From: Acidobacteriaceae bacterium | Lineage (GTDB): Bacteria; Acidobacteriota; Terriglobia; Terriglobales; Acidobacteriaceae | NCBI GenBank assembly: GCA_003169715.1 | Contig: PNAR01000330.1 | Span: 1-34,582 of the forward strand | Direction of reading: 5' to 3' | DNA: 34,582 bases | Shown here: piece by piece, positions 1,469-30,942 of the stretch | Position numbering within the stretch: position 1 is the first letter of the stretch | Layout of the letters: every line of letters starts with the position of its first letter | Translations under genes and position numbers: made by a program | Notes under the pieces: generated by a model | Database searches by the model: none | Seen by the model: only the letters and a program-made list of their open reading frames with translations | What the model was told of the DNA's origin: nothing

Positions 1469-1534
1469 GGGCATCTCGAAGCGCAGCCGCATGCGTTCGA
1501 GGCATTCAATAAAAAGCTAGCAATGCCCATGTGG

Positions 1535-1830: not shown

Positions 1831-1860
1831 TCTAAATTTCGCGTTCTTTGCGAAATTAGA
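1831..1860. repeat. Hairpin with conserved core TTTCGCGTTCTTTGCGAA
   Basis: TCTAAATTTCGC/GCGAAATTAGA arms; the core is shared with 6824-6855. Confidence 0.75.
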
Positions 1861-2267
1861 GTGGGGATGTTGGACGCTGGCGCAACCAGCATGAAGTCCC
1901 CGTGCGCGGTGAACCTACGCAATGCAGTGACGGTGTCGCAACAGCGCACGGGGAAACGCGTAGCCCAGCTTAGTCCCGCACGAATGAATGAGGTGTGCGC
2001 CACTCTGCGCTTCTCCCTGGGTTGCGATGCAAACTAGGGATTGGGGACGTTCCGTCTGTCCTCTGAATCTCCCTGTCCATCGGTGGAATTGCCCCACTCA
2101 CACCAAAAACAGGCTTGAATGGTACTCTCGTGCGAGGCCACCCATCTCCTGTGTATAATTATCTATTCTTATGCATTCCCCTCCCACCAATTTACGCGAA
2201 ATGAACTCTAACGTTTACGCACTTCGAAAGCCTTCCCTTTAGCTCCCTACTACCGCTTAGTAATTTA

Positions 2268-3551
2268 TTGGTGACAACCCGAATTCAATGGTTACTTAGC
2301 CTTTTGGGGGCTAAGTTGGAGGCGTTCGTGAAAAGTCGAAACTCTCGCGATAGGGCAGTTCCGGAATTCCGTGGAATTCGCAAAATCGGCGGAGCCGCCT
2401 CAGTTTTCTGCGATGAAGCCGGGTTCACTGGGAACAATCTGCTCGACAGCGCGCAAGAAGTCTTTGTTTTTGCGGGAGTTGCAATGCCCGGTGAGCGAGC
2501 AATTGAGGTCGTTGAACGCACACGACGCGATTTCAGGCTTCAAGGTAAAGAACTCAAAGGAAGTCGGATGTTAAAAACCGAGGCAGGTCGCCGGGCAATA
2601 ACCGCCATGCTGGAGGGATGCGCTGAACAGGCGCGGCTAGTGTCTCATTTAAAGAAATTTGCGCTCGCATGCAAATTCTTTGAATACATCTTTGAACCTG
2701 CATTGGCCGAGCAAAATTCACTTTTCTATAGTGTTGGATTTCACCTGTTCATTGGGAATCTCATGTTTGCCTTGTTACGAACAAGAGATGAATCCGCAGA
2801 GGTAATATTTGGAGAATTTTCAACATTTATGCGAGAAGGTAAGCTTGAGGCACTCGAAAAAATATTCCCACAACCAGGCAACGTAGAGTGGACTTCAAAT
2901 CCGCTCGCCGCTATATCTCTCTTCGCGATGACAAATAGAGCAGCTTTGCAATCGGAACGGGAAAGGACTCACAGTGCGACCGTTCTGAATTGGATTTTAG
3001 ACTTGACTACGACATCGCTCTTTAGCGTCTTGCGTTATTGGGGCGAGGTGTACGACGAAATTGACGTCTTTTGTGACAAATCAAAACCATTGGAAACGGA
3101 AATTGACATCCTAAAAAACATGGTTGGTCGCCGCGACCATATCCGTATGCAAATGTTTGGCAAGGATACCCAATTTACGTTCAACCTCATTCGTGAGCCG
3201 TCGCTAGTTGATTCTAAAGATTACGCCGGGGTGCAGATTGCAGATGTTTTCTCCTCAGCTGTCGCGAGCGCATGGCAAAAAAATTATTGGCAGCAAGCAG
3301 ATTCGACCGAAAAACGATGGCTGGATATAACCTTGCAATGTCATCTTGAGGACAACGTGTGGCCAGATTTGGAAAAAATCAATCTTAAAACCCGCTCGGG
3401 TTTCGTCAATGCCACAATCTTGCTTGAATTGGCACAAAGAAGTCTGAAAAAGGAAAATCTGTTTCGCGAAATGCCGGAATTTATCGCTATTTGCAATTTG
3501 GGATTTCAGGATTTCCTTCGAACCAATCGTAAACAGCGCCGGTTAAAGTAG
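2268..3551 (+). CDS. DUF3800 domain protein
   Basis: 'VFCDEAGFTGNN...FVFAGVAMP', internal 'DVFCDKSKPLE' and late 'GVQIADVFSSAVASAW' fit DUF3800. Start is TTG 2268 or GTG 2271. Confidence 0.75.
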   Translation: MVTTRIQWLLSLLGAKLEAFVKSRNSRDRAVPEFRGIRKIGGAASVFCDEAGFTGNNLLDSAQEVFVFAGVAMPGERAIEVVERTRRDFRLQGKELKGSRMLKTEAGRRAITAMLEGCAEQARLVSHLKKFALACKFFEYIFEPALAEQNSLFYSVGFHLFIGNLMFALLRTRDESAEVIFGEFSTFMREGKLEALEKIFPQPGNVEWTSNPLAAISLFAMTNRAALQSERERTHSATVLNWILDLTTTSLFSVLRYWGEVYDEIDVFCDKSKPLETEIDILKNMVGRRDHIRMQMFGKDTQFTFNLIREPSLVDSKDYAGVQIADVFSSAVASAWQKNYWQQADSTEKRWLDITLQCHLEDNVWPDLEKINLKTRSGFVNATILLELAQRSLKKENLFREMPEFIAICNLGFQDFLRTNRKQRRLK

Positions 3552-3675
3552 TAGTTGGGGCGAGTGGCCTTCGACACCAGCGAAGGCCTAAACCCCGCTG
3601 TTCGCTTTGAAACGACTGTCGCGAAACCGCTAACTTCTTCAGTTAGCTGGAACTGTTTTCGATTTGTGGCTTCTC

Positions 3676-7730: not shown

Positions 7731-7801
7731 GTTACCAACAGAATTACGGAGGGCAGTTGCCCTGAAAAATTCCGAAATTACTTGTCGGGCTTCGCTCGAC
7801 C

Positions 7802-7823
7802 GGACAGCCGAGGGCGACTGTCC
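7802..7823. repeat. Short palindromic element GGACAG-n10-CTGTCC
   Basis: Read directly upstream of the PP2C gene. Confidence 0.55.
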
Positions 7824-7911
7824 CTACGCGTGCATGGCATGGTACACGAGCACGGCGAAAGGCGGACGCATTTTACTGCGCCCGCCCATAGTTATTGCGT
7901 TAACGTAATCA

Positions 7912-9714
7912 TTATGACGCGGCCGGAATTCGCTCCTCCACCAGCGTGGTGCGGCCACTTCTTTTAGTCATGCGAGTGAAGAAAATCCCGCCATAGATTG
8001 CCCAGACTAGAGCGACTCCCAGCGCAAGCAACGGCTCCATTTTTGTTCCGTATCCCATGAATGGACCGATCACATAAAAAGCCATGCAGGCAAGGTTTGC
8101 GAGAAGACCAAATATTGGGATGATCAGATGCCGGACGACCTTGAACTTCGGGTGGTTGTGGTAGCAAACGATACAAGTGATGCAGCTCAGCATGTACAGA
8201 AGGAACGTTCCGAAGTTCGATGCGAGCGTTGTCGTCAAAAACGTATTTGGCAGCGCTGCCATTTTGTCATGCGTGGTATATCCAAAGCTGGACCAGAACC
8301 CATGGGGCAAGGCTGCGATAGCGGAATCCGCGGGGGCAGAACCGTCTCCGAAGTAAACCAATACGGTGATGCAGCCCACGATTGCGGAGATGATAGCCAG
8401 GGTCCAAATGGCCTTATGAGGGGTGAGGTTTCTGGAATGCAGCGCGCCCATGGAATCGGGCAACTCTTTATCCTTTCCCATGGCGTACGTGACGCGAGCT
8501 CCGGTATTGATGCAAGACAAAGTAGTGCCGATCAATGCGAGAAACACTGTCGCCGCTTCGACCAGCATGAAGATGCGTCCGTGCCCAGCGCCAAACAGGG
8601 CATCGCCAACGACGATCATCATGTCACCTATGGGCGCCGCCGAGGCACTGGCAAAGCCCATGGGATAGCCGCTATTGAGGAAATAGTTCGCCGCGAAGTA
8701 CTCAAACAAATAACAGAAACAGCCTTGAACGAGAAGCGACGTGATAACCGCAATGGGCACGTCGCGTTTGGCGTTCTTGGCCTCACCTCCCATGGAGGTT
8801 ACAGATTCAAATCCCACGAGAATCAGAATGGCAATCGTAGCTTGGACGAACATCCATCCGAAATTGTGTAAGCTGACCACCGACTTGGCATTCGGATGCG
8901 AAACAAAAGCACCGGTGGAATCTTTTTCGGGGTAGTCAATCTTAAAAGGAACCGGCTTTCCGGCTGCGTCGAGCGCGCACTGAGGCGTGCCGTCGGCGGC
9001 GCGGGTGATGGTGTCAGTACTAGCTCCGCTCACCATCGTTTTCGTGGTGGCGAACTCGCAACTAAAAGCGGCGCTGGTTTGCGGATCGAATTGGTACGCC
9101 GTGCTCCCGGGCGGATGATTGATGCGGAAACCCAAGGCTACAACTGTAAACACCAGCAAAGCACTGATCTGAATCACATTGATGCCGATGTTAATTGAGG
9201 TTGAACCGTTTACGCCGCGATGAGCAATATAGGCGACCGCGAATGAGAAGAAAATCGCAATGGCCATCATGAACATTGGCCCGGGATTAGAGGCGCTCAT
9301 GAAATTAGGCCAGATGGTGCCGACGAGATAGCCAGATATCACGCCGATAACGCCGACCATCACTCCCGGATAGATCCAGTAGTAAAGGTGTGAGCCCCAT
9401 CCGACGATGAATTTCGCTAAACGTGCGTAGGGCCATGCCGTTTCGTGATTGAGAAACGATTGTTCGGCGAAGTAATAGGAACTGCCGGTACCGGGATAGA
9501 GCTTGGCCATCTCCGCATAGCAAACGGCGGTGGCAAGACAGAGTAGGATCGCAAACAGAATACCGATCCACATGGAAGGCGCCGTTGCGCCTGCCGCCCC
9601 TTGTCCCGCAAAAGTCAACCATAGGAATGCGCCCGGCGCGATTAGCGCCATCGCATTCATCGTCAACCCCGTCAGGCCCAGGGTTTTCTGCATTTCTACT
9701 GGAGCATCGGCCAT
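7912..9714 (-). CDS. APC-superfamily amino acid permease
   Basis: Multi-TM; 'MQKTLGLTGLTMNAMALIAPGAFLWLTFAGQGA', 'GFESVTSMGGEAKNAKRDVPIAV', 'GARVTYAMGKDKELP'. Confidence 0.92.
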   Translation of the reverse strand: MADAPVEMQKTLGLTGLTMNAMALIAPGAFLWLTFAGQGAAGATAPSMWIGILFAILLCLATAVCYAEMAKLYPGTGSSYYFAEQSFLNHETAWPYARLAKFIVGWGSHLYYWIYPGVMVGVIGVISGYLVGTIWPNFMSASNPGPMFMMAIAIFFSFAVAYIAHRGVNGSTSINIGINVIQISALLVFTVVALGFRINHPPGSTAYQFDPQTSAAFSCEFATTKTMVSGASTDTITRAADGTPQCALDAAGKPVPFKIDYPEKDSTGAFVSHPNAKSVVSLHNFGWMFVQATIAILILVGFESVTSMGGEAKNAKRDVPIAVITSLLVQGCFCYLFEYFAANYFLNSGYPMGFASASAAPIGDMMIVVGDALFGAGHGRIFMLVEAATVFLALIGTTLSCINTGARVTYAMGKDKELPDSMGALHSRNLTPHKAIWTLAIISAIVGCITVLVYFGDGSAPADSAIAALPHGFWSSFGYTTHDKMAALPNTFLTTTLASNFGTFLLYMLSCITCIVCYHNHPKFKVVRHLIIPIFGLLANLACMAFYVIGPFMGYGTKMEPLLALGVALVWAIYGGIFFTRMTKRSGRTTLVEERIPAAS

Positions 9715-9738
9715 GTGACTTCTCCTTCGAAGCGGGAT

Positions 9739-9756
9739 TCGGACGTCGTCGTCCGA
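9739..9756. repeat. Perfect short palindrome TCGGACG-TCGT-CGTCCGA
   Basis: 7-bp arms just upstream of the permease start. Confidence 0.75.
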
Positions 9757-9947
9757 TTTCGATCTAAAACCGTTCCTACTAGCGCGGACTCGGCTTGGGG
9801 GCTTTTCGATCTGGCACCCAAGCCGGCCCGCATACTATCGAACACCTTTCTTATTGCGCCGTGCTAAATGCCTAAATCAAGCGCACCGCAAACCTGCTGC
9901 CCGGTGAGGCCTTGCTAAACCAAGCCCGGTAGCAGGTCCTTCGCGCT

Positions 9948-11174
9948 TTAAAACATGAAGCCTGCTTCAACCACCCCGCGCGGCTGATTGGCGCTCAGAC
10001 CGTTCGTACCGAAGCCGTCTCCGGCCGTCATGCTCGTCGCATGGACAATCGCCAGGTCTCCGCGCAGAAAGAATGCATCCTTGCGATAAGTTGGGGTGAT
10101 CGTGAGTCCAAAGGCACCGCTGCCGGGACCGTACATCAAATTCACCGCACCGTTGCTGGCGCTTCCCGAGCTCTTGATGTATTCAATCCGGGGCGCCAGC
10201 GAAAATCCATGCTTGAAGTTGTAGGTCATCAAGAGAGCGCCACTCTTTGTGCTCGCGCCTTGCGCGATCCCAATGCTCGCGTTCGTCGGAACGTCGGTGT
10301 ATTGGAAATACGGCTGCACCACCCAATTTCCTTTGGTGTAGGTATAAATCAGGTTGTAGATCTCCGAGTTATTCAGGGTCACAGGTGTTGCCAACGTGTT
10401 CTTTGCGTAGGAACCTGCGTTACCCATGCCTACAAAAGACAAGCTGTTTGCGGCATTGAATGCGTAGGTTGCCGAACCCGAGAGCCATGTGTAGCGGTTC
10501 GAATAAAAACCGTCATTCCAGCTTAGCGCCAGGGCCCACTTCTTGTAGGCCTCGTTGAGCTGAACGCCCCTATTGACGGCGTTCTCCTGGTTCCAGGGAA
10601 GGCCACGCTCGACGTTCATGTTTTCGAAGCTGAACGTGTACTCCGCGCCGATCAGGGTCGGCAGCGCGCCGATTTCTACGTTAAAGTTCCCTTTAACCAG
10701 CTTCAGGTAGCCTTGCGGAAACGGCCCATAGATGTTCTTGATCGTGTCCGAGGTTGAGAGGAAGGGCACCCCGATCGCGGGTAAGTTGTAGGCGCCGCCC
10801 TGCAAGTAGAACTGCCACCAGCCAGAAGTCTTTTGCACAAAAATTTGTGCGTTGCTGATGTCATAGTGCGTCGCGTTGTCACCGCTAACATGATTTCCTT
10901 CGGTCCAGCCAATGCCACTCAAAATTCCCGTAACCGCGAGTTTTCCGTCCTCAACCTCGTGAGGTACTGCGGTTTGTAGCGGCCCCGACATCGAAGGCAT
11001 GGGCAACGGCTGTGCGGCAGCCGTGGCTGGCGTGGGCGGGGGAGGAGCAGTGCCGCCAGCCGGAGCGGAGCTGGGCGCAGTCTGAGGATCCGAGGAGGCA
11101 TTTTGTCCAAAGGACGCAATGACCGCCAGCACGACGAATATCAGCACAGTTGAAACCACGAATCGTGTACGCAA
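9948..11174 (-). CDS. Outer-membrane beta-barrel protein (OmpL/BBP2-like porin)
   Basis: Signal peptide, Pro/Ala-rich linker, alternating beta-strand pattern, terminal 'VVEAGFMF' ending in Phe. Confidence 0.8.
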   Translation of the reverse strand: MRTRFVVSTVLIFVVLAVIASFGQNASSDPQTAPSSAPAGGTAPPPPTPATAAAQPLPMPSMSGPLQTAVPHEVEDGKLAVTGILSGIGWTEGNHVSGDNATHYDISNAQIFVQKTSGWWQFYLQGGAYNLPAIGVPFLSTSDTIKNIYGPFPQGYLKLVKGNFNVEIGALPTLIGAEYTFSFENMNVERGLPWNQENAVNRGVQLNEAYKKWALALSWNDGFYSNRYTWLSGSATYAFNAANSLSFVGMGNAGSYAKNTLATPVTLNNSEIYNLIYTYTKGNWVVQPYFQYTDVPTNASIGIAQGASTKSGALLMTYNFKHGFSLAPRIEYIKSSGSASNGAVNLMYGPGSGAFGLTITPTYRKDAFFLRGDLAIVHATSMTAGDGFGTNGLSANQPRGVVEAGFMF

Positions 11175-11560
11175 AGTTAATCTCCTTTTTTGGAATGCTC
11201 GGCAATTTACCGACTTCCATGGCGCATCAACGTGAAAATTCCACGCGAAGACAGAGGTCTCGAACCAAATTCAATATTCCCTGCGAAACGTCACTCAGGG
11301 CTCTTATGAGCGACGGACCACAAAAGTTCTGGGTGCAAAAGTATTGGGGACTCAGGTGGATGTCCAATTGATTGTTTTTTTAATGAGCATTAAAAATACT
11401 TTGAAAAGTAAAATCTATGGCCTGCATAAGCAGAAGTGTTAACCGCTGAAAGGAAAGAGTATGGCGAGTACCGAGTTAGCGGAAATGACCGAGCTTTGAA
11501 TCAGGCAAATTAGTTTTGTGAATGGGATCTACGGTTGACCTCACGGCGGGGTGGCACGCC

Positions 11561-12187
11561 TTATCGGCAATCAGCGCACACTTCGCCTCGTAACGCCTCC
11601 AGTCCCTCTTTGAGTATGATAGGAACCATGAGGACGGCGGCCAGTGAGTCAGCCCACCACCACCCAAATAGAGCATTAAGACCCAGCCCACAAAGCAGGA
11701 TCGCGGATAAATAGGCACAGATTGAGGTTTGCCGCGAGTCCGCCCGGAGTGCGCCGCTGCCAAGACTTGCAGCTGTTTTCCGCTTAAGACGAGCCAGCAC
11801 TGGCATTACGATCAGCGAAAGGATCGCAAGCGCGATACCGATGTCGCTCCGCTCGGGTTCTCGCCGGATCAATAGAGTTCTCACTGAACCGAATGTGACG
11901 TAGGCCGCCAGAGCCATGAAGCTTATGCCGACTAGCCGCAATGCCCGGCGTTCTACTCTCTCGATTTCATGACCGGAGCGCTCTGCGCGAAGCCGCCATA
12001 ATAGGATTGCTCCAGAGGAAGTTTCTATCAGGGAATCGAATCCGAACCCAATTAACGCCACGCTTCCGGCGAAGGAGCCAGCGGCGATTGCAATTGCACC
12101 TTCCAGCAGATTCCAACTGATCGTCAAGTATTCAAGGTAAATACCCCTTTCCAGATGATCAGACCGTGTGGCCGATTCTTTCGCCAT
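11561..12187 (-). CDS. Cation diffusion facilitator-like membrane protein
   Basis: 'SWNLLEGAIAIAAGSFAGSVALIGFGFDSLIE' and 'SLGSGALRADSRQTSICAYLSAILLCGLGLN...WWADSLAAV' match the CDF TM domain; the cytosolic C-terminal domain is absent. Confidence 0.78.
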   Translation of the reverse strand: MAKESATRSDHLERGIYLEYLTISWNLLEGAIAIAAGSFAGSVALIGFGFDSLIETSSGAILLWRLRAERSGHEIERVERRALRLVGISFMALAAYVTFGSVRTLLIRREPERSDIGIALAILSLIVMPVLARLKRKTAASLGSGALRADSRQTSICAYLSAILLCGLGLNALFGWWWADSLAAVLMVPIILKEGLEALRGEVCADCR

Positions 12188-12308
12188 TCACCGATGCTAT
12201 AGCAGACCCCGTATTTGTAGCAGCGTGGCCGAAGCGGGCTTAATTTTCATATCCATTTGTTAATGGTTACCCCCGATTACTATGGTGGTTCTATTCCCTT
12301 TCGCGTTA

Positions 12309-12337
12309 TTGCCCGCGTCCCCTGCCATACCTATAAT
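12309..12337 (+). promoter_or_regulatory. Sigma70-like promoter TTGCCC-17-TATAAT
   Basis: -35 at 12309-12314, -10 at 12332-12337, upstream of the lytic transglycosylase gene. Confidence 0.6.
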
Positions 12338-12425
12338 TGAGTCACTCTGGTAAGGATTCTCTCTTCAGGTTGCGGGTAGGCGTCCGCTGAGGTGTGTTTT
12401 CCTCCTGTTTTGTGATCGGTTTGCC

Positions 12426-13262
12426 ATGCGAAAACGCCTGCAACTCGCCTTGATGTCCATTGCTGCCATCGCGACCTTCCTTTCGGTCATGCCCTGCGTG
12501 CAGGCTCAGGCCTGGACGCCAGAGGTCATCACTGCCACGACCGACGATAGCGGCCACAAGGTTTATGTGAATGATTCGGTTCAAGCCCCGGTGAAGCGAG
12601 CACACCCTTCGACTTACGGGCAGAGTTCGCTCGTGTATTGGAGTGGAACCGACCATCGCTGGAAGCCCGTTCCTGCGGCAAACGTCCGTTCCGCCCGCTC
12701 TGCGGCGGACGAAGTGAAAATGATTCTTTCGCGCCGCTCGTCCGATAGTCCGGCGTTTCAACGGCCTTCCGGACAAGCTTTTACCCAGCCCGAAATAGAT
12801 GCCGCCATTAATCAGTCGGCGCTTCAACACAATGTTGACCCGAATTTGGTCCGGGCCTTGATTAAAGTCGAATCGAATTTTAATCCCAACGCCGTTTCGC
12901 CCAAGGGAGCGATGGGACTGATGCAGCTCATGCCGCAGACGGCGCGAGAATTGAATGTAACCAACCCCTTCGATCCGCAGCAAAACGTGGATGCGGGCGT
13001 TCGTCACCTGAAACATTTAATGGAGAGTTATGGCGGCGATGTGAGCCTGACCCTCGCCGCTTACAACGCTGGGGCGGGCGCGGTGGCGCGGAGTGCGGGC
13101 ATTCCAAATTTCCGGGAGACCCGCAATTACGTGACGCGGATTACGAATCTCTATCACGGCGCGCCCGGAGAAATTACGCGGAACTTGAGGGTTCCAGCTT
13201 ACTCGCCAGTAATGGTTCAACGAGATGCGAGCGGAGTTCTTTATATGAGTAACACGGATTGA
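12426..13262 (+). CDS. Lytic transglycosylase (SLT domain)
   Basis: 'VRALIKVESNFNPNAVSPKGAMGLMQLMPQTARELNV...AAYNAGAGAVARSAGIPNFRETRNYVTRI'. Confidence 0.93.
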   Translation: MRKRLQLALMSIAAIATFLSVMPCVQAQAWTPEVITATTDDSGHKVYVNDSVQAPVKRAHPSTYGQSSLVYWSGTDHRWKPVPAANVRSARSAADEVKMILSRRSSDSPAFQRPSGQAFTQPEIDAAINQSALQHNVDPNLVRALIKVESNFNPNAVSPKGAMGLMQLMPQTARELNVTNPFDPQQNVDAGVRHLKHLMESYGGDVSLTLAAYNAGAGAVARSAGIPNFRETRNYVTRITNLYHGAPGEITRNLRVPAYSPVMVQRDASGVLYMSNTD

Positions 13263-13332
13263 AAGAACGCATCTCAGTAGTACGACGTTAATTGTAAACA
13301 ACGGTTTCGGCAGCGATTGCGGTCTAAATACA

Positions 13333-15378
13333 TTGAAGAACCCCCATTCAAGCCACCGCCGGTTGTGCGGCAACGCTGCCTTCGTGATTCTGTTACTGTC
13401 GCTGCCCGCCCTCGCCAATATTTATAAATCCGATTCCTGGGCGCACGGGCAGTTTGCCATCGCGGAACACAAGCGCCAGGAATTGAATCAGCATCCGCCT
13501 GAGCGCCAAACTCGCCGCGAGTATCAAGACGTCATTGATTCCTATCGCCGGGTTTACTACGGAAGCCCGGCATCGTCCAAGGCGGACGCCAGCGTATTTG
13601 GGGTGGCGGACGTGCTGGCCGGCATGGGACGGCGATTTCACGAAGCAAAAACATTGCGTGCGGCCGTCGCGCAATATGAATTTTTGCGTCGGGAATATCC
13701 CGGCAGCAAATATCGCTTCGAGGCACTATTTAATATCGGCCATATCTACGCCAATGATCTCGATAGCCCGGATCGCGCGAAGAACGCTTTTGAGGAATTC
13801 GTAAGAAAATATCCGCGAAATCACTTTGCAGACGAGGCGCGTGCCGCTCTTGCGAATCTGCCTGGACCATCCGGGAAAATGAAGGAAAGTGAGGTTGCCG
13901 ACGGTTCTAGTTCCAACTCTAAGACGGAACTAAGTCCCGCACCAGCAGACGCCAGGCCACGAGTTGCGATTCAAACTGTAGTGCCGGAAGATACCGGCAA
14001 GCCTGCTCATATCATCTCCATCCATCACTGGTCGAAAGATGGCTATACCAAGGTGGCAATTGATCTGGATCATCCTGTCTCCTACAAGTCGCAGCGCATT
14101 GAAAATCCGGATCGCATTGTTTTTGATCTCGATGCCAATCTTTCGAGGAAGCTGATCGGCGAGACAGTTGATGTTGGCGACGACCTGCTTAAGGAAATCC
14201 GAGTGGCGCAGTTCAAGCCGGATCGCGCTCGCATAGTACTGGAAACGGGGGATCACTCCGACTTCAGTGCATCCGTCGAGCCGCATCCAACACGCCTGCT
14301 TATTAATCTCAAAGACAGCCGCATCCAGACGCAAGGACTTGAGAACAAAGATATTGAAAGCAGCGGGAATGTTTCGCGCGACGATAAAGACCGTCCGGGT
14401 TTGAAGCAGGCATCCGTAGATGTCAGGCCACAAAACGCGGCGAGATCCGCGATTCCCCTCAAGCGAATCGTCGAGGCCGACGAGGACGATACGGTCGCGA
14501 AGGTGGACCCAATCGCTCCGCCGCCCCCGGAGATACGAAAATCCCCTCTGCCGTCTTCCAAAACGCGCACGCCACTAAATCACCGCAAGGCGCGGCAGTT
14601 GGATGTGCGAGAGGCACAACCGACGGCGAGCGGCGACCGGTCTCTAATCCGCGCCTTGGGCTTGAAGATTGGGAAGATCGTGATAGATCCAGGACATGGC
14701 GGGTACGACACCGGAACTATCGGTCCGAACTCCCTCGAAGAGAAAGATCTCGTGCTTGACGTTAGCCGCCGCCTCGGCAAGCTGCTGGAATCCAGACTAG
14801 GCGCTCAGGTTGTTTATACGCGGAAAGACGATACGTTCGTGCCGCTCGAGACCCGCACTGCGATTGCGAATCAGGAACAGGCGGACCTCTTCGTTTCGGT
14901 GCATGCCAATTCCAGCCATGACCCTGCCGCGCGGGGAGTCGAGACTTACTACCTGAACTTCAGCTCTTCGCCGGACGCCCTCGAAGTCGCGGCACGCGAG
15001 AATGCGGTCTCTGAAACTTCAATCCACGAGCTTCAGGATTTGGTGAAGCAGATCGCGCTAAAAGAAAAGATCGAAGAATCTCGAGAGTTTGCCTCCGACG
15101 TTCAAGAGGAATTGCACAGCGGTCTGTCAGTCAGAAATCCCGGTCTCCGCGACCGTGGCGTGAAGAAGGCGCCTTTCATTGTGCTTATCGGCGCCAACAT
15201 GCCATCCATTCTGGCTGAGATTTCTTTTGTGAGCAATCCGGGCGATGAGCGGCGGTTAGAAACAGCGGCATACCGCCAACGGATCGCCGAGTCGCTCTAC
15301 CGCGGCATTTCGAAATACGTCAGCGGACTGAGCGGAGTAAAGGTCGCGAGCAAAATCGAAAAGACCTCAGTACAGTAA
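13333..15378 (+). CDS. N-acetylmuramoyl-L-alanine amidase with N-terminal TPR-like and AMIN domains
   Basis: 'IVIDPGHGGYDTGTIGPNSLEEKDLVLDVSRRL', 'FVSVHANSS', 'ILAEISFVSNPGDE'; AMIN-like 'SYKSQRIENPDRIVFDLD'. TTG start in the ORF track. Confidence 0.92.
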   Translation: MKNPHSSHRRLCGNAAFVILLLSLPALANIYKSDSWAHGQFAIAEHKRQELNQHPPERQTRREYQDVIDSYRRVYYGSPASSKADASVFGVADVLAGMGRRFHEAKTLRAAVAQYEFLRREYPGSKYRFEALFNIGHIYANDLDSPDRAKNAFEEFVRKYPRNHFADEARAALANLPGPSGKMKESEVADGSSSNSKTELSPAPADARPRVAIQTVVPEDTGKPAHIISIHHWSKDGYTKVAIDLDHPVSYKSQRIENPDRIVFDLDANLSRKLIGETVDVGDDLLKEIRVAQFKPDRARIVLETGDHSDFSASVEPHPTRLLINLKDSRIQTQGLENKDIESSGNVSRDDKDRPGLKQASVDVRPQNAARSAIPLKRIVEADEDDTVAKVDPIAPPPPEIRKSPLPSSKTRTPLNHRKARQLDVREAQPTASGDRSLIRALGLKIGKIVIDPGHGGYDTGTIGPNSLEEKDLVLDVSRRLGKLLESRLGAQVVYTRKDDTFVPLETRTAIANQEQADLFVSVHANSSHDPAARGVETYYLNFSSSPDALEVAARENAVSETSIHELQDLVKQIALKEKIEESREFASDVQEELHSGLSVRNPGLRDRGVKKAPFIVLIGANMPSILAEISFVSNPGDERRLETAAYRQRIAESLYRGISKYVSGLSGVKVASKIEKTSVQ

Positions 15379-20469: not shown

Positions 20470-21369
20470 CTAGCGTTTCAGCACCACCATGATCACTAGA
20501 ACGACAGGCAAGTATATTACTGAAGCATGAACCAGTTTTCTGGCGAGGACTGTCGAGGCGGAGGTAGAAAGTTTGAGCGAATGGTAAAACAGGAATGCCC
20601 CCGCGATGAACATTGCCGCGACATAATAGGACCCACCGCGATCAATGAAAGGCAGCATGGTGGTAACGATGAGGGCGAGGGTAAACAATACGATTTCTGA
20701 TCGCGTAAAGCGGCTGTCCAGGTCAAATTGAGGAAGCATTCTGTAACCCGCGCGCGCATAGTCGTCACGGTACATCAACGCGATAGCCAGGAAGTGAGGG
20801 AACTGCCACAGAAACAAAATTGCGAAAAGAAACCATGCCTGCGGGTCAATGCGGCCCGATCCTCCCGCCCATCCGATCAAAGTTGGCATCGCGCCCGGAA
20901 TTGCGCCGAGCAGCGTACAGAGCGGAGTTATGCGCTTCAAGGGAGTGTAAACAAGAAGGTAGGAGAGCAGGGTGGATAATGCCAGAACCGCCGACAACGT
21001 GTTCACGGTAGCGAACAGGTAGAGTCCGCCTCCAACGCTGAGAAGAATTCCGAAAATAAGTGCGTGAATGGAATTCATACGTCCGGATGGCATGGGCCGG
21101 TTCGCGGTGCGACGCATTTGGCCATCCCAGACCCGTTCCATCCATTGATTCAATGTTGCCGTGCCGCTGGCTACGAGCAACGTGCCAATCAGGGTATTGA
21201 CGAGACCAAAAAATCTGAACGTACCGCGCGAGGCAAGATAATAACCCGCTGACGTGGTCATCAGAATCAACAGATTCACTTCCGGCTTGGTCAGCGTATA
21301 AAAATCCCGCAGCCTGGACGTCAAGTCCTGCCTCTCGCCCGGCGGCGCCATTACCTGAGTTGTGGCCAT
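20470..21369 (-). CDS. ctaB: Protoheme IX farnesyltransferase (heme O synthase)
   Basis: 'DFYTLTKPEVNLLILMTTSAGYYLA', 'NQWMERVWDGQMRRTANRPMPSGRM', 'YRDDYARAGYRMLPQ' are UbiA/CtaB motifs. Confidence 0.94.
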   Translation of the reverse strand: MATTQVMAPPGERQDLTSRLRDFYTLTKPEVNLLILMTTSAGYYLASRGTFRFFGLVNTLIGTLLVASGTATLNQWMERVWDGQMRRTANRPMPSGRMNSIHALIFGILLSVGGGLYLFATVNTLSAVLALSTLLSYLLVYTPLKRITPLCTLLGAIPGAMPTLIGWAGGSGRIDPQAWFLFAILFLWQFPHFLAIALMYRDDYARAGYRMLPQFDLDSRFTRSEIVLFTLALIVTTMLPFIDRGGSYYVAAMFIAGAFLFYHSLKLSTSASTVLARKLVHASVIYLPVVLVIMVVLKR

Positions 21370-21387: not shown

Positions 21388-21657
21388 TTACCAGCGTTCA
21401 CGCGATTCACCGATGTCTGCGGTCTGCTTAAATTTATTCCGTTTCCGATAAGCCAGGATTGTAATCCCAACCGAAAGGAAACTTGGAGGAACTACTAAAA
21501 CCAAAATCCCACCGCGCAAAGCGTGGATCATCCGCGCGCCTGCGGAAGCGGCCTGGGTATAGCACAATGCGCAGCTTTGCGAAAAAGCGGGCAGCGGAAT
21601 AAGGAGCACCACCAGTCCCGCGAAAACGATTGCCGCGACTTGTAAACGCGTCCGCAT
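21388..21657 (-). CDS. Small exported/membrane protein with a CxxC motif
   Basis: MRTRLQVAAIVFAGLVVLLIPLPAFSQSCALCYTQAASAGARMIHALRGGILVLVVPPSFLSVGITILAYRKRNKF...; start moved inward from the ORF call. Confidence 0.65.
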   Translation of the reverse strand: MRTRLQVAAIVFAGLVVLLIPLPAFSQSCALCYTQAASAGARMIHALRGGILVLVVPPSFLSVGITILAYRKRNKFKQTADIGESRERW

Positions 21658-21677
21658 TATTATTTTGAATGGAACCT

Positions 21678-21992
21678 CTAATGGTAACTGGAAAATGGCG
21701 CGCCCACCAGTATTCTGAAGCTGTCTGGCCACAAATAATTCATCGCGGCGAGAACGAATAGAGTAAAGACGGCGACAAAAATCAGGAAGCCCCGGGTCTC
21801 CATCCACAAGTGCATAAAAAATAGGACGCCCAATCCAGCTTCCAGCATGGCCAATGCCAGCATGCGCGCAAACATCTGTGCGCCGTCAATATGCTGGTAA
21901 GCGATCACAAACTGAAGGGCGGCAATAACCAGAATAGCCACGTAGACGATGAGGTCTCGCGCGAGAGAGCCGCGATCTTGCGTCGAATTCAT
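21678..21992 (-). CDS. Prokaryotic cytochrome c oxidase subunit IV-type protein
   Basis: Three-TM protein 'LIVYVAILVIAALQFVIAYQHI...LAMLEAGLGVLFFMHLW' in the cox cluster. Confidence 0.8.
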   Translation of the reverse strand: MNSTQDRGSLARDLIVYVAILVIAALQFVIAYQHIDGAQMFARMLALAMLEAGLGVLFFMHLWMETRGFLIFVAVFTLFVLAAMNYLWPDSFRILVGAPFSSYH

Positions 21993-22009: not shown

Positions 22010-22645
22010 CTAGTGTGTCGGCGCAACATTGAGAAGATAGACGAACGGCACTACGAACATCCAAACCAGGTCCACGAAGTGCCAGTACAATCCAAGAATC
22101 TCGATGTCATCCGCGTTGTAACGGCCGCCCCTGTACCGCAGCCCAACCACGATCAGAGCGATGACCCCGCCGGTGACATGGAGCAGGTGTAAACCCGTGA
22201 TGCTGAAAAAACTGGCGCCAAAAATCGCCGTGCCCCATGGATTGTGGAACAATGTGGCGCCTTCACCGATCATTCCCAGCCATTCGCGAATGTGCAAAAT
22301 GGCGAAAACAATGCCGCCGGCAGCCGTAATCAACATCCAGTTGAAGGCCTTGGATTTGTTTCCCGCTTTCGCGGCGCGAATCGCGATCAGCATGGTGAGA
22401 CTGCTGGTGATGAGAATGAAAGTCATTACCATCGCGTTAACGACCGTGGGCAAAAATTGGAACGGCTTCGGCCAGTCCGGCGTGGCATTGCGCAAGAAGC
22501 CGTAAGCCATCAGGCATGCCGCGAAGGTTGCCGCGTCAGAGATGAGGAACAGCCACATCACCAGTTTTTTGGTGGGAATCGAGAATGGCGAGCCCTCGCT
22601 CAGTTCTTGCGAGTGCGCTCCCACTGCTACATTTGCGTGGCTCAC
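22010..22645 (-). CDS. Cytochrome c oxidase subunit III-type protein (second copy)
   Basis: GTG start (MSHANVAVGAHSQ...) preceded by AGGAGG; 'KLVMWLFLISDAATFAACLMAYGFLRN', 'GLHLLHVTGGVIALI', 'LYWHFVDLVWMFVVPFVYL'. Confidence 0.9.
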   Translation of the reverse strand: MSHANVAVGAHSQELSEGSPFSIPTKKLVMWLFLISDAATFAACLMAYGFLRNATPDWPKPFQFLPTVVNAMVMTFILITSSLTMLIAIRAAKAGNKSKAFNWMLITAAGGIVFAILHIREWLGMIGEGATLFHNPWGTAIFGASFFSITGLHLLHVTGGVIALIVVGLRYRGGRYNADDIEILGLYWHFVDLVWMFVVPFVYLLNVAPTH

Positions 22646-22667
22646 GGCGCCTCCTGTATTTGAGTCT

Positions 22668-23345
22668 TCACATCTTGCTCCAGAGAAGCAAAAGCAGATA
22701 CAGCCACAGAACGTCCATGAAATGCCAGTAATAAGAAGTTGCGTCCAAAGTGCTGCGGCGCAGGACTGACTTGCCAAGCTTTCTGATGACGCGGACCAGA
22801 CCGCCGAGGCCTCCCAAGACATGTAACGCGTGTGCGGCGGTCAACACATAGAAGAAAGAGCTACTGGGATTCGTGGCCAGATAGAGACCCTGAGATTTTA
22901 GTTGGAGCCACGCCACATATTGCCCTGCTACGAAGATCAGGCCCAGAAATAAAGTTATATATAACCACTTTGCAGGGGGGGCAGCCTGCGATCTTAAACC
23001 TCCCATGAACGCAGCCACTCGACGCCGTCCGAGTTCAAGCGTGACGCTACTGGCGAGGAGCACCAGGGTGTCGAAGTAGAGGATCGAAGGCAGGGTGAAA
23101 TGTCGCCAGTCTGGCGATGCGCCCTGGCGAACAATCAGCGCACTGGTGAACGCCGCAAAGGACATCGTGATCGCAGCCATTCCCACCCACACCCCAAGAC
23201 TTGCGGGAGGAGGGGAATATTGCTGCACATCGCGCATGGTGCCATCGGCAGGAACCAGGTTGCGCCAACCCCCGCCGCCGCCGTCCTGCCCAACGGGATC
23301 CCGCGGAGGCTCGATTTTGGGAGGTTCGTGCGTGGTGGTGGCCAT
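22668..23345 (-). CDS. Cytochrome c oxidase subunit III-type protein (first copy)
   Basis: 'SLGVWVGMAAITMSFAAFTSALIVRQ', 'AAHALHVLGGLGGLVRVI', 'SYYWHFMDVLWLYLLLLLW'. Confidence 0.88.
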   Translation of the reverse strand: MATTTHEPPKIEPPRDPVGQDGGGGGWRNLVPADGTMRDVQQYSPPPASLGVWVGMAAITMSFAAFTSALIVRQGASPDWRHFTLPSILYFDTLVLLASSVTLELGRRRVAAFMGGLRSQAAPPAKWLYITLFLGLIFVAGQYVAWLQLKSQGLYLATNPSSSFFYVLTAAHALHVLGGLGGLVRVIRKLGKSVLRRSTLDATSYYWHFMDVLWLYLLLLLWSKM

Positions 23346-23350
23346 AAGAA

Positions 23351-25141
23351 CTATTTTTCGTCCCGTACGGTATGTATTTGCTCGGGCGAATCTTGCATTA
23401 CGTAGTCGTTTGAAGATCCTTCGATCCCGTACTGATAGGGATCGTGGTATACGACGGGATGTTTACCGCCGAAGTTATCGAACGGGGGTGGTGACGGCAT
23501 CGTCCATTCAAGAGAAGTAGCTTCCCACGGATTGGGCGGCGCTGGCGCTCCGCGGAAACGGCTATGAATCAAGTTGTACAGAAAAATCAATTGAGCCGCG
23601 CCAGTGAGCAGCGCTGCGATGGTAATGAACTTGTGCACCCCAAGCAGGGGTTGCATGTAATCATCCACGAACGCCTGGTAGCGGCGAACGTTGCCAGCCA
23701 TCCCCAGGTAATGGAAGGGCATGAAGATTGCATAAGTGCCGACAAATGTCAGCCAAAAGTGGAGCTTCCCAAGGCTTTCGTTCATCATGTGCCCGGTCAT
23801 CTTGGGGAACCAGAAATATGTCCCGGTGAAAATGCCGAACAACGCCGCTACCGCCATCACCATGTGGAAGTGGCCGACGACAAAGTAAGTGGCGTGAAGG
23901 TAGATATCGAGCGAAGGCTGCGCGAGGAAAAAGCCGCTTACACCACCACTCACAAACATTGAAATGAAACCGAGCGCAAATAGAGAAGCGCTGTTGATGC
24001 GCAACTTGGAACCGTAAAGGCTGAAAATCCAGATCAGCACGATAATCGTGGCTGGAATGGTGATGACTAAGGTTGGGAAAGAGAACACCAGTCCGGAGAA
24101 AGGGTTCATCCCGCTGACGAACATGTGATGCCCGTACACCATGTAGCTCAGGAATGCCAGCGCACCCATGCATCCGATCATCACTTTGTGGCTGAGAAGC
24201 GGCCGCCGCATGTTGGTGATGAGCACGTGAGAGACGATCCCCACGCCCGGCACGATCGCAATGTAAACCTCAGGATGGCCGAAGAACCAGAATAGGTGCT
24301 GCCACAGCAAAGTAGAGCCGCCAGAGTGGGGAAGCATCTTGTCATTGATCACGAGACCGGATGCGATAAAGAAGCTGGTGCCCGCCACATGATCAAGAAT
24401 CAGCAGGATGCACGCCGGGAGCAACACCGCGAACGCGGTTAGCCCCATGCATGATGTGATAAACCACGCCCAGACGGTGAGCGGCATCCGCATCAACGTC
24501 ATGCCTTTGGTACGAAGATCGAGCGTAGTCGTGATGAAGTTCAGGGAGCCTAATAACTGCCCGACGCAGAACAGGGCAATGGATATCGCCCACAAAACCT
24601 GACCGGTACCTTGTCCAGGACCAGCGATTGCACCGACCGCGCTCAACGGTGCGTAGGCGGTCCAACCGGAAAGTGGGGGGCCGTCTCCCACGAAGAAAGC
24701 TGACATGAGAACGCAGAAGGCCACGAAGGTAATCCAGAACGACATCATGTTGAATCGGGGGAAGGGCATGTCTTCCGCGCCAACCTGGATCGGCAAGAAG
24801 AAGTTTCCAAAGCCGGCAAACGGCGCCGTTGTGAGCACAAAAAAGACCATGATTGTCCCATGCATGGTCATCAATTCCAGGTAGTATTCGGGCGTCATTA
24901 ATCCGCCGGGGGCTCCCACGCTCGAAAGCCACTGCAATCCGGGAATCCTCGCGTTTGTCCATGCGAGATGGAATCGCATCAGCCAGGAGATGGCCATCCC
25001 AATATAAACGGCGATCAAGGCAAGGCCGTAATACTGCTTGCCAATAACTTTGTGGTCCAGGCTAAAGATGTATTTGCGAATGAAGCTTGTTGGCGCGTGG
25101 TGCTGTGCCGCATGGGCAGACATGTCATGCATGATGCTCAC
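23351..25141 (-). CDS. ctaD: Cytochrome c oxidase subunit I (A-type, aa3-like)
   Basis: 'MHGTIMVFFVLTTAPFAGFGNFFLP', 'FWFFGHPEVYIAIVPGVGIVSH', 'YGHHMFVSGMNP', 'ATYFVVGHFHMVMA'. Confidence 0.97.
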   Translation of the reverse strand: MSIMHDMSAHAAQHHAPTSFIRKYIFSLDHKVIGKQYYGLALIAVYIGMAISWLMRFHLAWTNARIPGLQWLSSVGAPGGLMTPEYYLELMTMHGTIMVFFVLTTAPFAGFGNFFLPIQVGAEDMPFPRFNMMSFWITFVAFCVLMSAFFVGDGPPLSGWTAYAPLSAVGAIAGPGQGTGQVLWAISIALFCVGQLLGSLNFITTTLDLRTKGMTLMRMPLTVWAWFITSCMGLTAFAVLLPACILLILDHVAGTSFFIASGLVINDKMLPHSGGSTLLWQHLFWFFGHPEVYIAIVPGVGIVSHVLITNMRRPLLSHKVMIGCMGALAFLSYMVYGHHMFVSGMNPFSGLVFSFPTLVITIPATIIVLIWIFSLYGSKLRINSASLFALGFISMFVSGGVSGFFLAQPSLDIYLHATYFVVGHFHMVMAVAALFGIFTGTYFWFPKMTGHMMNESLGKLHFWLTFVGTYAIFMPFHYLGMAGNVRRYQAFVDDYMQPLLGVHKFITIAALLTGAAQLIFLYNLIHSRFRGAPAPPNPWEATSLEWTMPSPPPFDNFGGKHPVVYHDPYQYGIEGSSNDYVMQDSPEQIHTVRDEK

Positions 25142-25184: not shown

Positions 25185-25988
25185 TTACTGGTTTGCCGCT
25201 TGCTGCTTTAGCCAACTGTCAAAGTCGGTCTGGGACATGACTTCCAGGTAGGCCTTCATGTTGTAGTGACCCAGACCGCAAAGCTGCGTGCACACGATCT
25301 CATACTTCCCAATTTTGTTGGCGGTGAAATGAAGCGAAAGGTCCAGCCCGGGAACGAAGTCCTGTTGGACTCGCAACTCTCTTACGTAAAAAGAGTGACC
25401 CAAGTCCTTGCTATGCATCAGCAAATGCACTTCCTTGTTTACTGGCATTGCCATTTCCGCAGTTACAATATCGTCTTTCGCGGCGGGATCGTTTGCCGGA
25501 TCCAGACCGAAGAAATTCTGGTTGCCCTCGTCAATCTTGTCGGGATGAATGGTTCCGAATTTTCCATCCGGCCCTGGGTAGCGGAAATAAAAGGCGAACT
25601 GACCCGCCTGCACTTGAATTGGCATGGAGTCGGCTGCGGGGGGCGTGAAGTACACCGCAGCCCAAGCTTTGGTTCCGAAAACGCCGAGTGCGAGAACCTC
25701 AGTCCCAACCAAAAGAAAAGCGGCAATAACCAAAGCCATTGCGCCGCCCGGAAAGTGACCAATCTTTGCATCCTTGGGGCGTCCGGAAAACTTCCAGATA
25801 AAGAACGCAAGAATAATTTGGGCGGCCAGAAACGCGATTCCAGCTTCGGCCATAGTGTCGGCCATTTGTTCGTCAATCAGGGGGCCGTGAGTGGAGATGT
25901 CCACTGGCATTGGCCAGGTATGCATGAGAATCGGGACCGCAGAAGCAATTGCGATCACGAAGATAGTCACCGCGAAAAGTTTTGCCAT
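25185..25988 (-). CDS. ctaC: Cytochrome c oxidase subunit II with CuA site
   Basis: 'LLMHSKDLGHSFYVREL' and the CuA motif 'CTQLCGLGHYNM'; two N-terminal TM segments. Confidence 0.94.
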   Translation of the reverse strand: MAKLFAVTIFVIAIASAVPILMHTWPMPVDISTHGPLIDEQMADTMAEAGIAFLAAQIILAFFIWKFSGRPKDAKIGHFPGGAMALVIAAFLLVGTEVLALGVFGTKAWAAVYFTPPAADSMPIQVQAGQFAFYFRYPGPDGKFGTIHPDKIDEGNQNFFGLDPANDPAAKDDIVTAEMAMPVNKEVHLLMHSKDLGHSFYVRELRVQQDFVPGLDLSLHFTANKIGKYEIVCTQLCGLGHYNMKAYLEVMSQTDFDSWLKQQAANQ

Positions 25989-27773: not shown

Positions 27774-29144
27774 CTAGAAGTCGAAGTCAAATCCGAGTAA
27801 AAGACTGCTGCTGCTGAGGTCGCCGCCATCGGGCGCGGTGCCACGCTGCCGGGTCCACGAATACTCGTTGTGCCAGGCGAAACCGGCCCGGCTGGTCATA
27901 ATCGGGTAGTAGCGGTATCCGATGGTGTACATGTCAACATCGCCGAAATTCGATGCGCTGGTAGGATCTGCCTGTTGAGACATGCGCTCCCACTCCGAGC
28001 GCTGGATGAAGATCAATTGAGGGCTGTAAACGTAGTGAGTTTCCAGCATGTACCCATTCCACGTCGGAGCCCGAGCGCCGACCGGAAGGGTCGTGCCGGG
28101 GATGTTATTATTCACGATAGTTCCACCGGGTAGATCGCCATATCCGGCGCCGAACCACGCGCTGTCGGAGCCGTGTTGGGTCACCGCCAGGAAATCAAGC
28201 TTCCCAAAATAGAACAATCCAACGAAGCCCTCGCGGCTGTAGGATTTATTCCCAATCGCGGCGCCGGGAATGATGCTTCCTCCGTTTTGTGTGATGTACG
28301 TGGTCGGCGCTTCTCCGACCATGGCATAGGCGCCAATGCGATCCACCCCGAGTTTTCCGACGTCGAAGGCCTGGCTGGCGGCAAAGAATCCGCTATAAGA
28401 GTTTCCGTATGAAAGATTCACATTGCCGTCGCTGGAACTCAGCAATGCAGCGGATACGCGGGTACGGTCGTTGACGGAGTGGCCCATCCACTCCACACCG
28501 AGCTGGTTGTCGCCAATTTGCCCAAAGATGTTGCCATCCCCTTGCGGAATGAAGTGATAAGTCTGGTAAATCCCAGAAATGCTCGTTAGAGTCAGAATTC
28601 TTTTTTCGGAAACGAGGTTATCAAGCTCGAATTTGCCAAGCTTTACGTTCAACCATGGGCTGCCAAAGATATTGTCGAGCCGGGCGAAGACCTGCTCAAA
28701 ATGGAAAGAGGCCGTGGGGTCGGATGAGGGAAGGACGTAAAAAGAAATGTTTTTATCCAACGTCCCGCCGGTGTGGAAGTCGAGACCGGAAAGGTCAAAA
28801 CCGTGGGATGTGACTTGAACTTCCCCGGAGTTGGGTCCCGCAGGTGTATCCACTAAAACCTTATTGGTGCTTTCCCGGTGCCAGTTTGGGGTAATGCGAA
28901 ATACGACCGGCCAGTAGGAAGGGTTCTGCCAGATCGGGGCGTCCCTGTCATTCATCAGCTGATAGCCGTTATCTTTGAATTTCTGCCCGAAGTAGTTGAG
29001 CATCGGCCATGCTTCGTGACAGGCCGAGCAGCGGAGTCCATATTTACGGGCGAAAGCAGGTAAGGCGTGGGCGCTAGAGGCAAATCCGAGAACTATGAAA
29101 ACAAAAAGCAATGCAGATGCAAGACTTCTACGGAACGAAGTCAT
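27774..29144 (-). CDS. Fused mono-haem cytochrome / outer-membrane beta-barrel protein (Cyc2-like)
   Basis: Signal peptide; 'LPAFARKYGLRCSACHEAWPMLNYFGQKFKDNGYQL' followed by a beta-strand-rich region ending '...LLLGFDFDF' (C-terminal Phe). Confidence 0.75.
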   Translation of the reverse strand: MTSFRRSLASALLFVFIVLGFASSAHALPAFARKYGLRCSACHEAWPMLNYFGQKFKDNGYQLMNDRDAPIWQNPSYWPVVFRITPNWHRESTNKVLVDTPAGPNSGEVQVTSHGFDLSGLDFHTGGTLDKNISFYVLPSSDPTASFHFEQVFARLDNIFGSPWLNVKLGKFELDNLVSEKRILTLTSISGIYQTYHFIPQGDGNIFGQIGDNQLGVEWMGHSVNDRTRVSAALLSSSDGNVNLSYGNSYSGFFAASQAFDVGKLGVDRIGAYAMVGEAPTTYITQNGGSIIPGAAIGNKSYSREGFVGLFYFGKLDFLAVTQHGSDSAWFGAGYGDLPGGTIVNNNIPGTTLPVGARAPTWNGYMLETHYVYSPQLIFIQRSEWERMSQQADPTSASNFGDVDMYTIGYRYYPIMTSRAGFAWHNEYSWTRQRGTAPDGGDLSSSSLLLGFDFDF

Positions 29145-29304: not shown

Positions 29305-29970
29305 TTAGACGCCGCGCAAGAAAATTTCTGCGACGTGACGGGCCATGACCCGAGCGCGCGCACGGTCCTGTCCGAGGGCGACAGGACGAAGAAAACCGAA
29401 ACCAAAACCCAGCAAGCCAATAAATCTTGCCAGTCCGTGCAGTTCGTCGAGGGTCAGAGATCTGCATTCCTTAAAATGTTTAAGCCGCTCGACGATGGCG
29501 TCGGCATGCCGGGAAGTGCCGACGCGACTCAGGACCTTTCCGACTTCGGGATCAAGTAAAGCTCGAGGAATGATCACTCGGAGGAAATCCCGGTCTTCCC
29601 ACATGCGCTGAAGTTCCCACTCCAGCAACTGGAGGAACTCCAGGGAGAAGCTTTGTGCAAGAGGAACATGAGCGTTTAAATCCACCACTTCGCGCGCGAC
29701 GCGGTCCTGGATGATGGCCAGAAGAAGTCCTTCTTTGCCGGTAAAATACCGATGGATAAGCCCCTCGGCACATCCCGCGCAAGCGGCGATCTCGCGAGTG
29801 GTGGTGGCCTCGTATCCCCGGCATGCAAAGAGTTTGATTGCGGCGGCGAGGAGCGCTTGCTGTTTGGCCGCGCGATCACGCCGCCGTTTTGGCCTGACTC
29901 CAGATCTTGCCGCAGAGCGCGGGTGCTGCGGAGTAATCTTGCTCTTGCGAGACTGATTGAAAGATTTCAT
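29305..29970 (-). CDS. TetR-family transcriptional regulator
   Basis: 'AKQQALLAAAIKLFACRGYEATTTREIAACAGCAEGLIHRYFTGKEGLLLAII'. Confidence 0.92.
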   Translation of the reverse strand: MKSFNQSRKSKITPQHPRSAARSGVRPKRRRDRAAKQQALLAAAIKLFACRGYEATTTREIAACAGCAEGLIHRYFTGKEGLLLAIIQDRVAREVVDLNAHVPLAQSFSLEFLQLLEWELQRMWEDRDFLRVIIPRALLDPEVGKVLSRVGTSRHADAIVERLKHFKECRSLTLDELHGLARFIGLLGFGFGFLRPVALGQDRARARVMARHVAEIFLRGV

Positions 29971-30018
29971 ATCGGATGCGTCCGAATGATAATGTTTGCC
30001 AAGCGACGGTATGACTCC

Positions 30019-30942
30019 ATGAGACCTGTGATGTCAAGCATTAGTTTTGTTTTCTTGAAAATTTCGCGCGAATACTGTTTCTTAAGGCTCCATACTTTGC
30101 TGGGGGCACTGATCCTGGTCATGTTGATCTCCCCGCTGCAAGCGCGGGAAAAAGCCAAGAAAGTTGATTATGGAGCGGGCTTGAGCGTGGAAATCGCGTC
30201 ACCAGAAACCGAAGTTCTGCAAGCCGTTGAGGACGTCGCCGACGACGGGATCATTCAAGGGACCAAGGAATACAACAAGGACGAGAATATTAGCGGAGCG
30301 TCTTCCGTTGCCTCAACCCCGCTATACCCTGCGTGGACTGGCCCAGGAAAGGTTTTCTACAAGGTTCGAACCGAAGCGCTGGATCCGCGTAATTTCAAAG
30401 AAGGCGGCGATGTGGGGACGCTGGCGGTGCGATACATTGTGCAAAGTGCCGGCCCAGGCAAGACTACCTTGCGCATTGATGCGGTCTTTGTCGAAGATTT
30501 TCGACGGACCGTCCATCCTTCCAATGGCATGGTGGAAACGAGCGAGTATAAAGACATTACCGATCATCTCGACCAAATGCACTTGCGACAAAAAGAAACT
30601 GACGAGACCGCAAAAAAACGCGAGCAGGACGTTGCCCGACGCGAACTGCTTCGTGCGCCGAGCGACAACAACAACAACGCGTCCCGTCTGGCCGCTGCGC
30701 AATTCTCATCTCAGACGCTAGAACAGCACATACAGGATTTGCGGCATCAGGTGGAGCGCCGGGTGGCGGCCTCGGGCGCGTCCCTTAAATCGGCGCCTTT
30801 TCACACGGCGAGTACGCTCAAACCTCTTACTCCCGGTACGGAAGTAGTCATCTTGATTGTGACGCCTTACTGGTACGGGATAGAGACTCAGGATGGACAA
30901 CACGGGTGGCTCTTTCACGACCAAGTTGAGGCTTTGCCGTGA
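30019..30942 (+). CDS. Hypothetical exported/membrane protein with C-terminal SH3-like segment
   Basis: Hydrophobic N-terminus 'LHTLLGALILVMLISPLQA'; C-terminal 'GTEVVILIVTPYWYGIETQDGQHGWLFHDQVEALP'. The ORF-track start at 29752 overlaps TetR and is unlikely. Confidence 0.6.
   Translation: MRPVMSSISFVFLKISREYCFLRLHTLLGALILVMLISPLQAREKAKKVDYGAGLSVEIASPETEVLQAVEDVADDGIIQGTKEYNKDENISGASSVASTPLYPAWTGPGKVFYKVRTEALDPRNFKEGGDVGTLAVRYIVQSAGPGKTTLRIDAVFVEDFRRTVHPSNGMVETSEYKDITDHLDQMHLRQKETDETAKKREQDVARRELLRAPSDNNNNASRLAAAQFSSQTLEQHIQDLRHQVERRVAASGASLKSAPFHTASTLKPLTPGTEVVILIVTPYWYGIETQDGQHGWLFHDQVEALP

Follow-up and report, generated by a model that had tools for sequence, protein, structure and literature searches.

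Acidobacteriota, which rank with the most abundant bacteria of soils, are usually regarded as heterotrophs. A 34,582-nucleotide stretch from a member of the Acidobacteriaceae (contig PNAR01000330.1; the window) carries a gene whose product resembles the iron oxidase Cyc2, and the locus raises the question of whether such bacteria can draw electrons from a donor outside the cell, and to what acceptor these electrons would pass. Our analysis indicates that the product, here called CYC2L, is probably a Cyc2-family electron-uptake protein that feeds a dedicated O2-reducing chain in heterotrophic Terriglobia, with Fe(II) as its most likely donor. Acidobacterial Cyc2 homologues have already been mentioned (PMC10654088), and in the literature searched we found no reports of iron oxidation in Terriglobia.

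A probable fused cytochrome–porin of the Cyc2 family

The initial annotation proposed that a single polypeptide combines a haem, a Cyc2-like N-terminus and an outer-membrane barrel. The ORF is real, its coordinates proved exact (Table 1), and the peptide quoted from it corresponds to residues 29–61 of CYC2L, which contains AHALPAFARKYGLRCSACHEAWPMLNYFGQKFKDNGYQL. The gene lies on the minus strand, a point on which the annotation was silent; the plus-strand frame at 27774–29144 is interrupted by stops. The protein has one CxxCH only and a terminal Phe (C-terminus GFDFDF), both as had been described. The pattern FAR[QK][TY]xxxCxxCH did not occur in any of 200 shuffled windows read in six frames, so the motif is far beyond chance. 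Its residues are invariant in alignments of 23 and 61 sequences; AxPxFAR[Q/K][T/Y] is exact in 76 of 79 homologues, and all 79 carry PxL at +4 from CxxCH (CSACHEAWPML in CYC2L). Searches of CYC2L against Pfam, NCBIfam and PDB sequences returned no family match; matches to LysR regulators (E ~1.7) and to a phage protein (E 0.14) were set aside as chance.

We modelled CYC2L with AlphaFold2 from an alignment of 61 sequences, comprising our own and those of the named loci. The model (mean pLDDT 82, pTM 0.80) has 17–18 strand segments spread over residues 80–455, which bears out the claim that the remainder of the protein consists of barrel strands, and places a helix at residues 5–20 in the signal peptide region. 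Foldseek against the PDB showed that the nearest solved folds are 16-stranded porins, with matches to BpsOmp38, OprP (2o4v, rank 2), PorB and OprO (4rjw, rank 12). OprP and OprO are also the templates reported for Mariprofundus Cyc2 (PMC8406198). The haem-bearing residues 22–69 have pLDDT below 50, so the model is mute on the position of the haem relative to the lumen.

Cyc2 proteins are defined by AxPxFAR[Q/K][T/Y] upstream of a single CxxCH with PxL four residues downstream, and further by a length of at least 365 residues and a porin (PMC8406198). In CYC2L, a signal peptide (recognized by eye) precedes a single CxxCH, the motif reads ALPAFARKY, PxL lies at +4, the length is 456 aa, and the predicted structure is an approximately 16-stranded OprP/OprO-like barrel. 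This agreement with the published definition, item by item, together with the porin folds, supports the Cyc2-like reading of the N-terminus. CYC2L thus has in common with A. ferrooxidans Cyc2 and Mariprofundus Cyc2-PV1 (PMC8406198, PMC7029218) the signal peptide, the single CxxCH, both motifs, the length and a porin barrel near OprP/OprO, but it carries the [K][Y] variant of the motif. A CYC2L profile aligned to canonical-motif Cyc2 at the N-terminus only, over the first ~140 columns (E 1.6e-16), whereas the porin part past about residue 160 was left unaligned; the canonical set includes one sequence from an A. ferrooxidans plasmid and no biochemically verified Cyc2. A network study places Leptospirillum Cyt572 beside acidobacterial and Nitrospira homologues (PMC10654088), and Cyt572 falls in Cluster 3 (PMC7029218), the cluster whose function is most uncertain (PMC8406198). 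Judging from the [K][Y] variant and this literature, CYC2L would be Cluster 3-like. The MtoAB and PioAB systems likewise pair an outer-membrane barrel with haem for electron uptake, but there a separate decahaem cytochrome sits inside a 26-stranded porin, whereas CYC2L carries one haem, its CxxCH and barrel being parts of one polypeptide.

Other Cyc2-like genes were seen in these bacteria and beyond. A third family in Terriglobia (SRQYGTSCSTCHVDFPKLNDFGKAFKD...; loci L026, L029 and L030) aligned to CYC2L by profile over its whole length (probability 99.7%, 430 columns). Its members, however, are ~500–525 aa long compared with 456 aa, and their neighbours are cupredoxin-like and Rieske/cytochrome b genes, not those of an aa3 oxidase. 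In the genome from which the window comes, a second gene of the Cyc2 type carries the canonical motif (SRQTGMPCATCH...PELTPFGRTFKLEGYT; locus L024, contig C336, positions 779–4707). It stands at the head of genes for cytochrome c, a Rieske protein and cytochrome b/c, in an order repeated in L027 and L150; this set may form an uphill counterpart to the downhill aa3 branch encoded in the window. Two plasmids, CP084173 and NC_009469 (L155 and L156), whose records name Acidithiobacillus ferrooxidans YQ-N3 and Acidiphilium cryptum, share one layout of a Cyc2-like gene, a c-type cytochrome and a neighbouring transposase, which would reflect either transfer or a mis-assigned record.

A conserved respiratory operon

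The most informative evidence is a respiratory operon that the initial annotation missed. On the minus strand, CYC2L is followed by genes for a dihaem cytochrome c and a cupredoxin-like protein, then by coxB, coxA, coxC, a second coxC, a gene for a small membrane protein and ctaB (Table 1). The gap between CYC2L and the dihaem c gene is 12 bases and that between the dihaem c and cupredoxin-like genes is 22 bases. A close solved relative of the dihaem cytochrome is 6h5l chain B (E 4e-62), which we take to be the small dihaem component in a multihaem reductase complex of anammox bacteria; a weak NCBIfam match to cytochrome 579 (1.3e-11) was below the cut-off. Because the listed start of the second coxC overlaps the first, its true start is probably further in. 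The small membrane protein, which also occurs in unlinked cox operons, is possibly an oxidase assembly factor or accessory subunit. On the other side of CYC2L, the TetR-type protein is a possible regulator. The product of the divergently transcribed gene has no match in Pfam or NCBIfam, and its true start is probably near 30016, since the listed start overlaps the TetR gene.

Table 1. Features of the CYC2L locus, in window coordinates
Feature	Position	Strand	Basis or remark
Cyc2-like fused monohaem cytochrome–porin (CYC2L), 456 aa	27774..29144	-	Sequence, alignments, AlphaFold2, Foldseek
Signal peptide, ~residues 1–26 (SSAHA before and LPAFARK after the cut)	29067..29144	-	Cleavage site placed by eye
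Cyc2 signature AxPxFAR[Q/K][T/Y] = ALPAFARKY, residues 27–35	29040..29066	-	Compared with the published motif (PMC8406198)
Haem-binding CSACH, residues 39–43, with PML at +4	29016..29030	-	Sequence and alignment
C-terminal predicted outer-membrane beta-barrel, residues 80–456, terminal Phe	27777..28907	-	AlphaFold2; Foldseek to porins
Periplasmic dihaem cytochrome c (CVGCH, CWKCH), 302 aa	26853..27761	-	Proposed electron acceptor of CYC2L
Cupredoxin-like protein (HNIHP...CNIHPWM) with C-terminal CarboxypepD_reg, 247 aa	26087..26830	-	Putative copper site, from ligand pattern
Cytochrome c oxidase subunit II, CuA motif CTQLCGLGHYNM, Mg-site Glu replaced by Gln	25185..25988	-	
Cytochrome c oxidase subunit I, HATY instead of HDTY at Mg site	23351..25141	-	
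Cytochrome c oxidase subunit III (first)	22668..23345	-	
Cytochrome c oxidase subunit III (second)	22010..22822	-	
Small conserved membrane protein, CALCY motif	21388..21807	-	In nearly every operon copy
Haem o synthase CtaB	20470..21369	-	TIGR01473 above cut-off
TetR-type regulator	29305..29970	-	Precedes CYC2L in some relatives
Divergently transcribed protein	29752..30942	+	Adjoins the operon in most relatives

About 20 relatives share the operon order, as do most of the 80 named Terriglobia contigs; all are acidobacterial MAGs, many of them from soil and from peat sites (palsa, bog, fen). The dihaem cytochrome c gene adjoins CYC2L in 72 of the 76 loci with room to see it, and 70 of 71 cupredoxin-like proteins retain the pattern of copper ligands. 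This aa3 oxidase lies downstream of CYC2L in 56 loci and is absent from 12 with enough downstream sequence, while 12 contigs are too short; the 12 loci that hold CYC2L without this oxidase show that the two are not inseparable. Among 100 relatives, full-length CYC2L was found in 22 genomes and an orthologue of the linked cox1 (70–84% identity) in 22, with both present in 21, either one alone in a single genome each, and neither in 77 (Fisher P ~2e-19, ignoring shared ancestry). In the genome with cox1 alone (G056), the contig breaks off shortly after the cupredoxin gene, at the place expected for CYC2L.

Most genomes have other cox1 genes, with identities of at most 63%, and the unlinked cox operons inspected contain neither CYC2L nor the dihaem cytochrome c. 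The possibility that the window holds an ordinary acidobacterial cox operon was rejected, since the unlinked ones have cox1 at ~60% identity, HDT[YF] and CAELC, and no CYC2L or dihaem c. Other acidobacteria have cupredoxin-like and cox genes together in an operon that lacks CYC2L, which leaves CYC2L and the dihaem cytochrome as the only specific additions. The open-licence literature, to which the search was confined, yielded no description of this operon, of co-occurrence with a dedicated oxidase, or of the Mg-site loss described below.

The linked oxidase and comparison with known iron-oxidation systems

In bovine oxidase, D369 of COX1 and E198 of COX2 bind Mg2+ between CuA and haem a3. In the linked cox1 of the named loci, the HDTY that precedes the haem ligands is changed to HATY (46 of 49) or HGTY (3 of 49), and the CuA loop of the linked cox2 reads CTQLC (53 of 55) or CSQLC (2 of 55). 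Five unlinked oxidases retain HDT[YF] and CAELC. As the positions of the bovine Asp and Glu are replaced in every linked oxidase seen, the CYC2L-linked aa3 clade appears, from sequence, to have lost both acidic Mg ligands while keeping CuA, and this loss would mark the clade as functionally separate. The intact CuA suggests that the oxidase takes its electrons from a c-type donor.

The rus operon of Acidithiobacillus has the order cyc2-cyc1-cup-coxBACD-rus-ctaT-ctaB-ctaA (PMC10654088), and the order in the window (cyc2-like, dihaem c, cupredoxin-like, coxB, coxA, coxC ... ctaB) is almost the same. The protein in the 'cup' slot of the window is cupredoxin-like by its ligand pattern and carries CarboxypepD_reg; we do not claim homology to AcoP. 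Unlike the rus operon, the window has two coxC genes and lacks rusticyanin, and its oxidase is without the Mg-site Asp and Glu, a comparison that refers to the bovine and unlinked oxidases and not to the Acidithiobacillus enzyme. No match to rusticyanin (TIGR03095) was found in the source genome (75.8% complete) or in any CYC2L carrier among the 100 relatives. A link to rusticyanin was therefore rejected, and because of this absence we do not file the operon as a rus operon, although by analogy it may work like one. Since the cupredoxin-like/cox operon exists without CYC2L in other acidobacteria, a parsimonious history would be the addition of a Cyc2-like/dihaem pair to a duplicated cox operon, with convergence on the rus layout. 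Rusticyanin-like proteins (TIGR03095, below cut-off) were seen at L132, L133 and L135, in a sister family (f2) that is rich in canonical-motif Cyc2 copies.

There are also resemblances to the Cyt572/Cyt579/cbb3 system of Leptospirillum. Cluster 3, to which we provisionally liken CYC2L, holds Cyt572; the dihaem cytochrome weakly matches cytochrome 579; and a distant CYC2L homologue adjoins a cbb3 oxidase. In contrast to the Leptospirillum system, CYC2L is mostly found with an aa3 oxidase, and the likeness to Cyt572 comes from the literature, not from sequence.

Direction of electron flow, donor and physiology

The distant homologue, full-length and 31% identical, is encoded in another acidobacterial family (G368; locus L144, positions 7800–14055). 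The genes there encode, in order, a cupredoxin-like protein, the CYC2L homologue, a dihaem cytochrome c, CcoN and a fusion of CcoO-FixO and cytochrome that has EF-hands, the last two constituting a cbb3 oxidase. The presence of the same Cyc2-like/dihaem pair beside two unrelated oxygen reductases, aa3 and cbb3, is the best evidence here pointing to an oxygen sink, and hence to inward electron flow to oxygen. We propose that CYC2L, located in the outer membrane, would accept single electrons on its lone c-haem from an extracellular donor, of which Fe(II), dissolved or chelated, is the most likely. From the haem they would go to the periplasmic dihaem cytochrome c, whose gene starts 12 bases downstream, and from this, perhaps with help from the cupredoxin-like protein, to CuA of the aa3-type oxidase of the same operon. 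From CuA the electrons would move through haem a to haem a3/CuB and O2, the oxidase reducing O2 and conserving energy.

The same oxidase linkage bears on the opposite direction of flow. Cyc2B and Cyc1 isoforms have been described for ferric iron reduction (PMC10715153), and CYC2L might likewise reduce Fe(III) or humics, a role suggested for certain Cyc2 isoforms of Acidithiobacillus and Acidiphilium; with a dedicated oxidase co-occurring almost one to one, and two unrelated terminal oxidases linked to the pair, we regard outward flow as very unlikely. We give equally little credence to the idea that the barrel acts as a porin and the N-terminal haem in sensing, gating or assembly, with no part in respiratory electron transfer. 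The low pLDDT of the haem segment, for which no barrel contact is demonstrated, would be compatible with such a role, but neither the Cyc2-specific motif (PMC8406198) nor the conserved adjacency to a soluble dihaem cytochrome and an oxidase fits it.

A change of donor would leave both conduit and oxidase in place. Instead of Fe(II), CYC2L could oxidize Mn(II), Cu(I), reduced humics or some other reductant outside the cell, or the system could serve metal detoxification and not energy gain. The uncertainty over Cluster 3 function (PMC8406198) leaves room for this, as do the origin of most carriers, which are peat or soil MAGs from where humics are abundant, and the lack of RuBisCO in the carriers searched, which gives no sign of autotrophic growth on iron. 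On the other hand, all Cyc2 proteins tested to date, from Acidithiobacillus, Leptospirillum (Cyt572) and Mariprofundus, oxidise Fe(II) (PMC8406198, PMC7029218). We therefore consider a donor other than Fe(II) unlikely, if clearly less so than outward flow or a sensing porin, and Fe(II) as the likely, still unproven, donor of CYC2L.

RuBisCO was not found in any of 15 carrier genomes searched, so Calvin-cycle autotrophy is not supported in them. This makes an energy supplement to heterotrophy more likely than an iron-based autotrophy, and the carriers appear to be heterotrophs for which the chain would be an extra energy source. Stated in full, our proposal is that heterotrophic soil and peat Terriglobia possess a complete, dedicated chain from extracellular Fe(II) to O2, with a Cyc2-family porin and dihaem cytochrome c leading to an aa3 oxidase that lacks the Mg-site Asp and Glu, and that this chain was assembled apart from the rus operon by adding the pair to a duplicated cox operon and supplements their energy. 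This composite account is tentative, and we hold it to be possible rather than probable.

If it is true, iron adds to the energy that non-autotrophic Terriglobia obtain. The oxidase signature, HATY or HGTY together with CTQLC or CSQLC, provides a marker of the pathway for metagenomes, and Cluster 3-type Cyc2 proteins gain a strong genomic link to oxygen respiration. A conserved operon of Cyc2 with its own oxidase would make many Acidobacteriota, in soil as well as in peat, candidate iron oxidisers.
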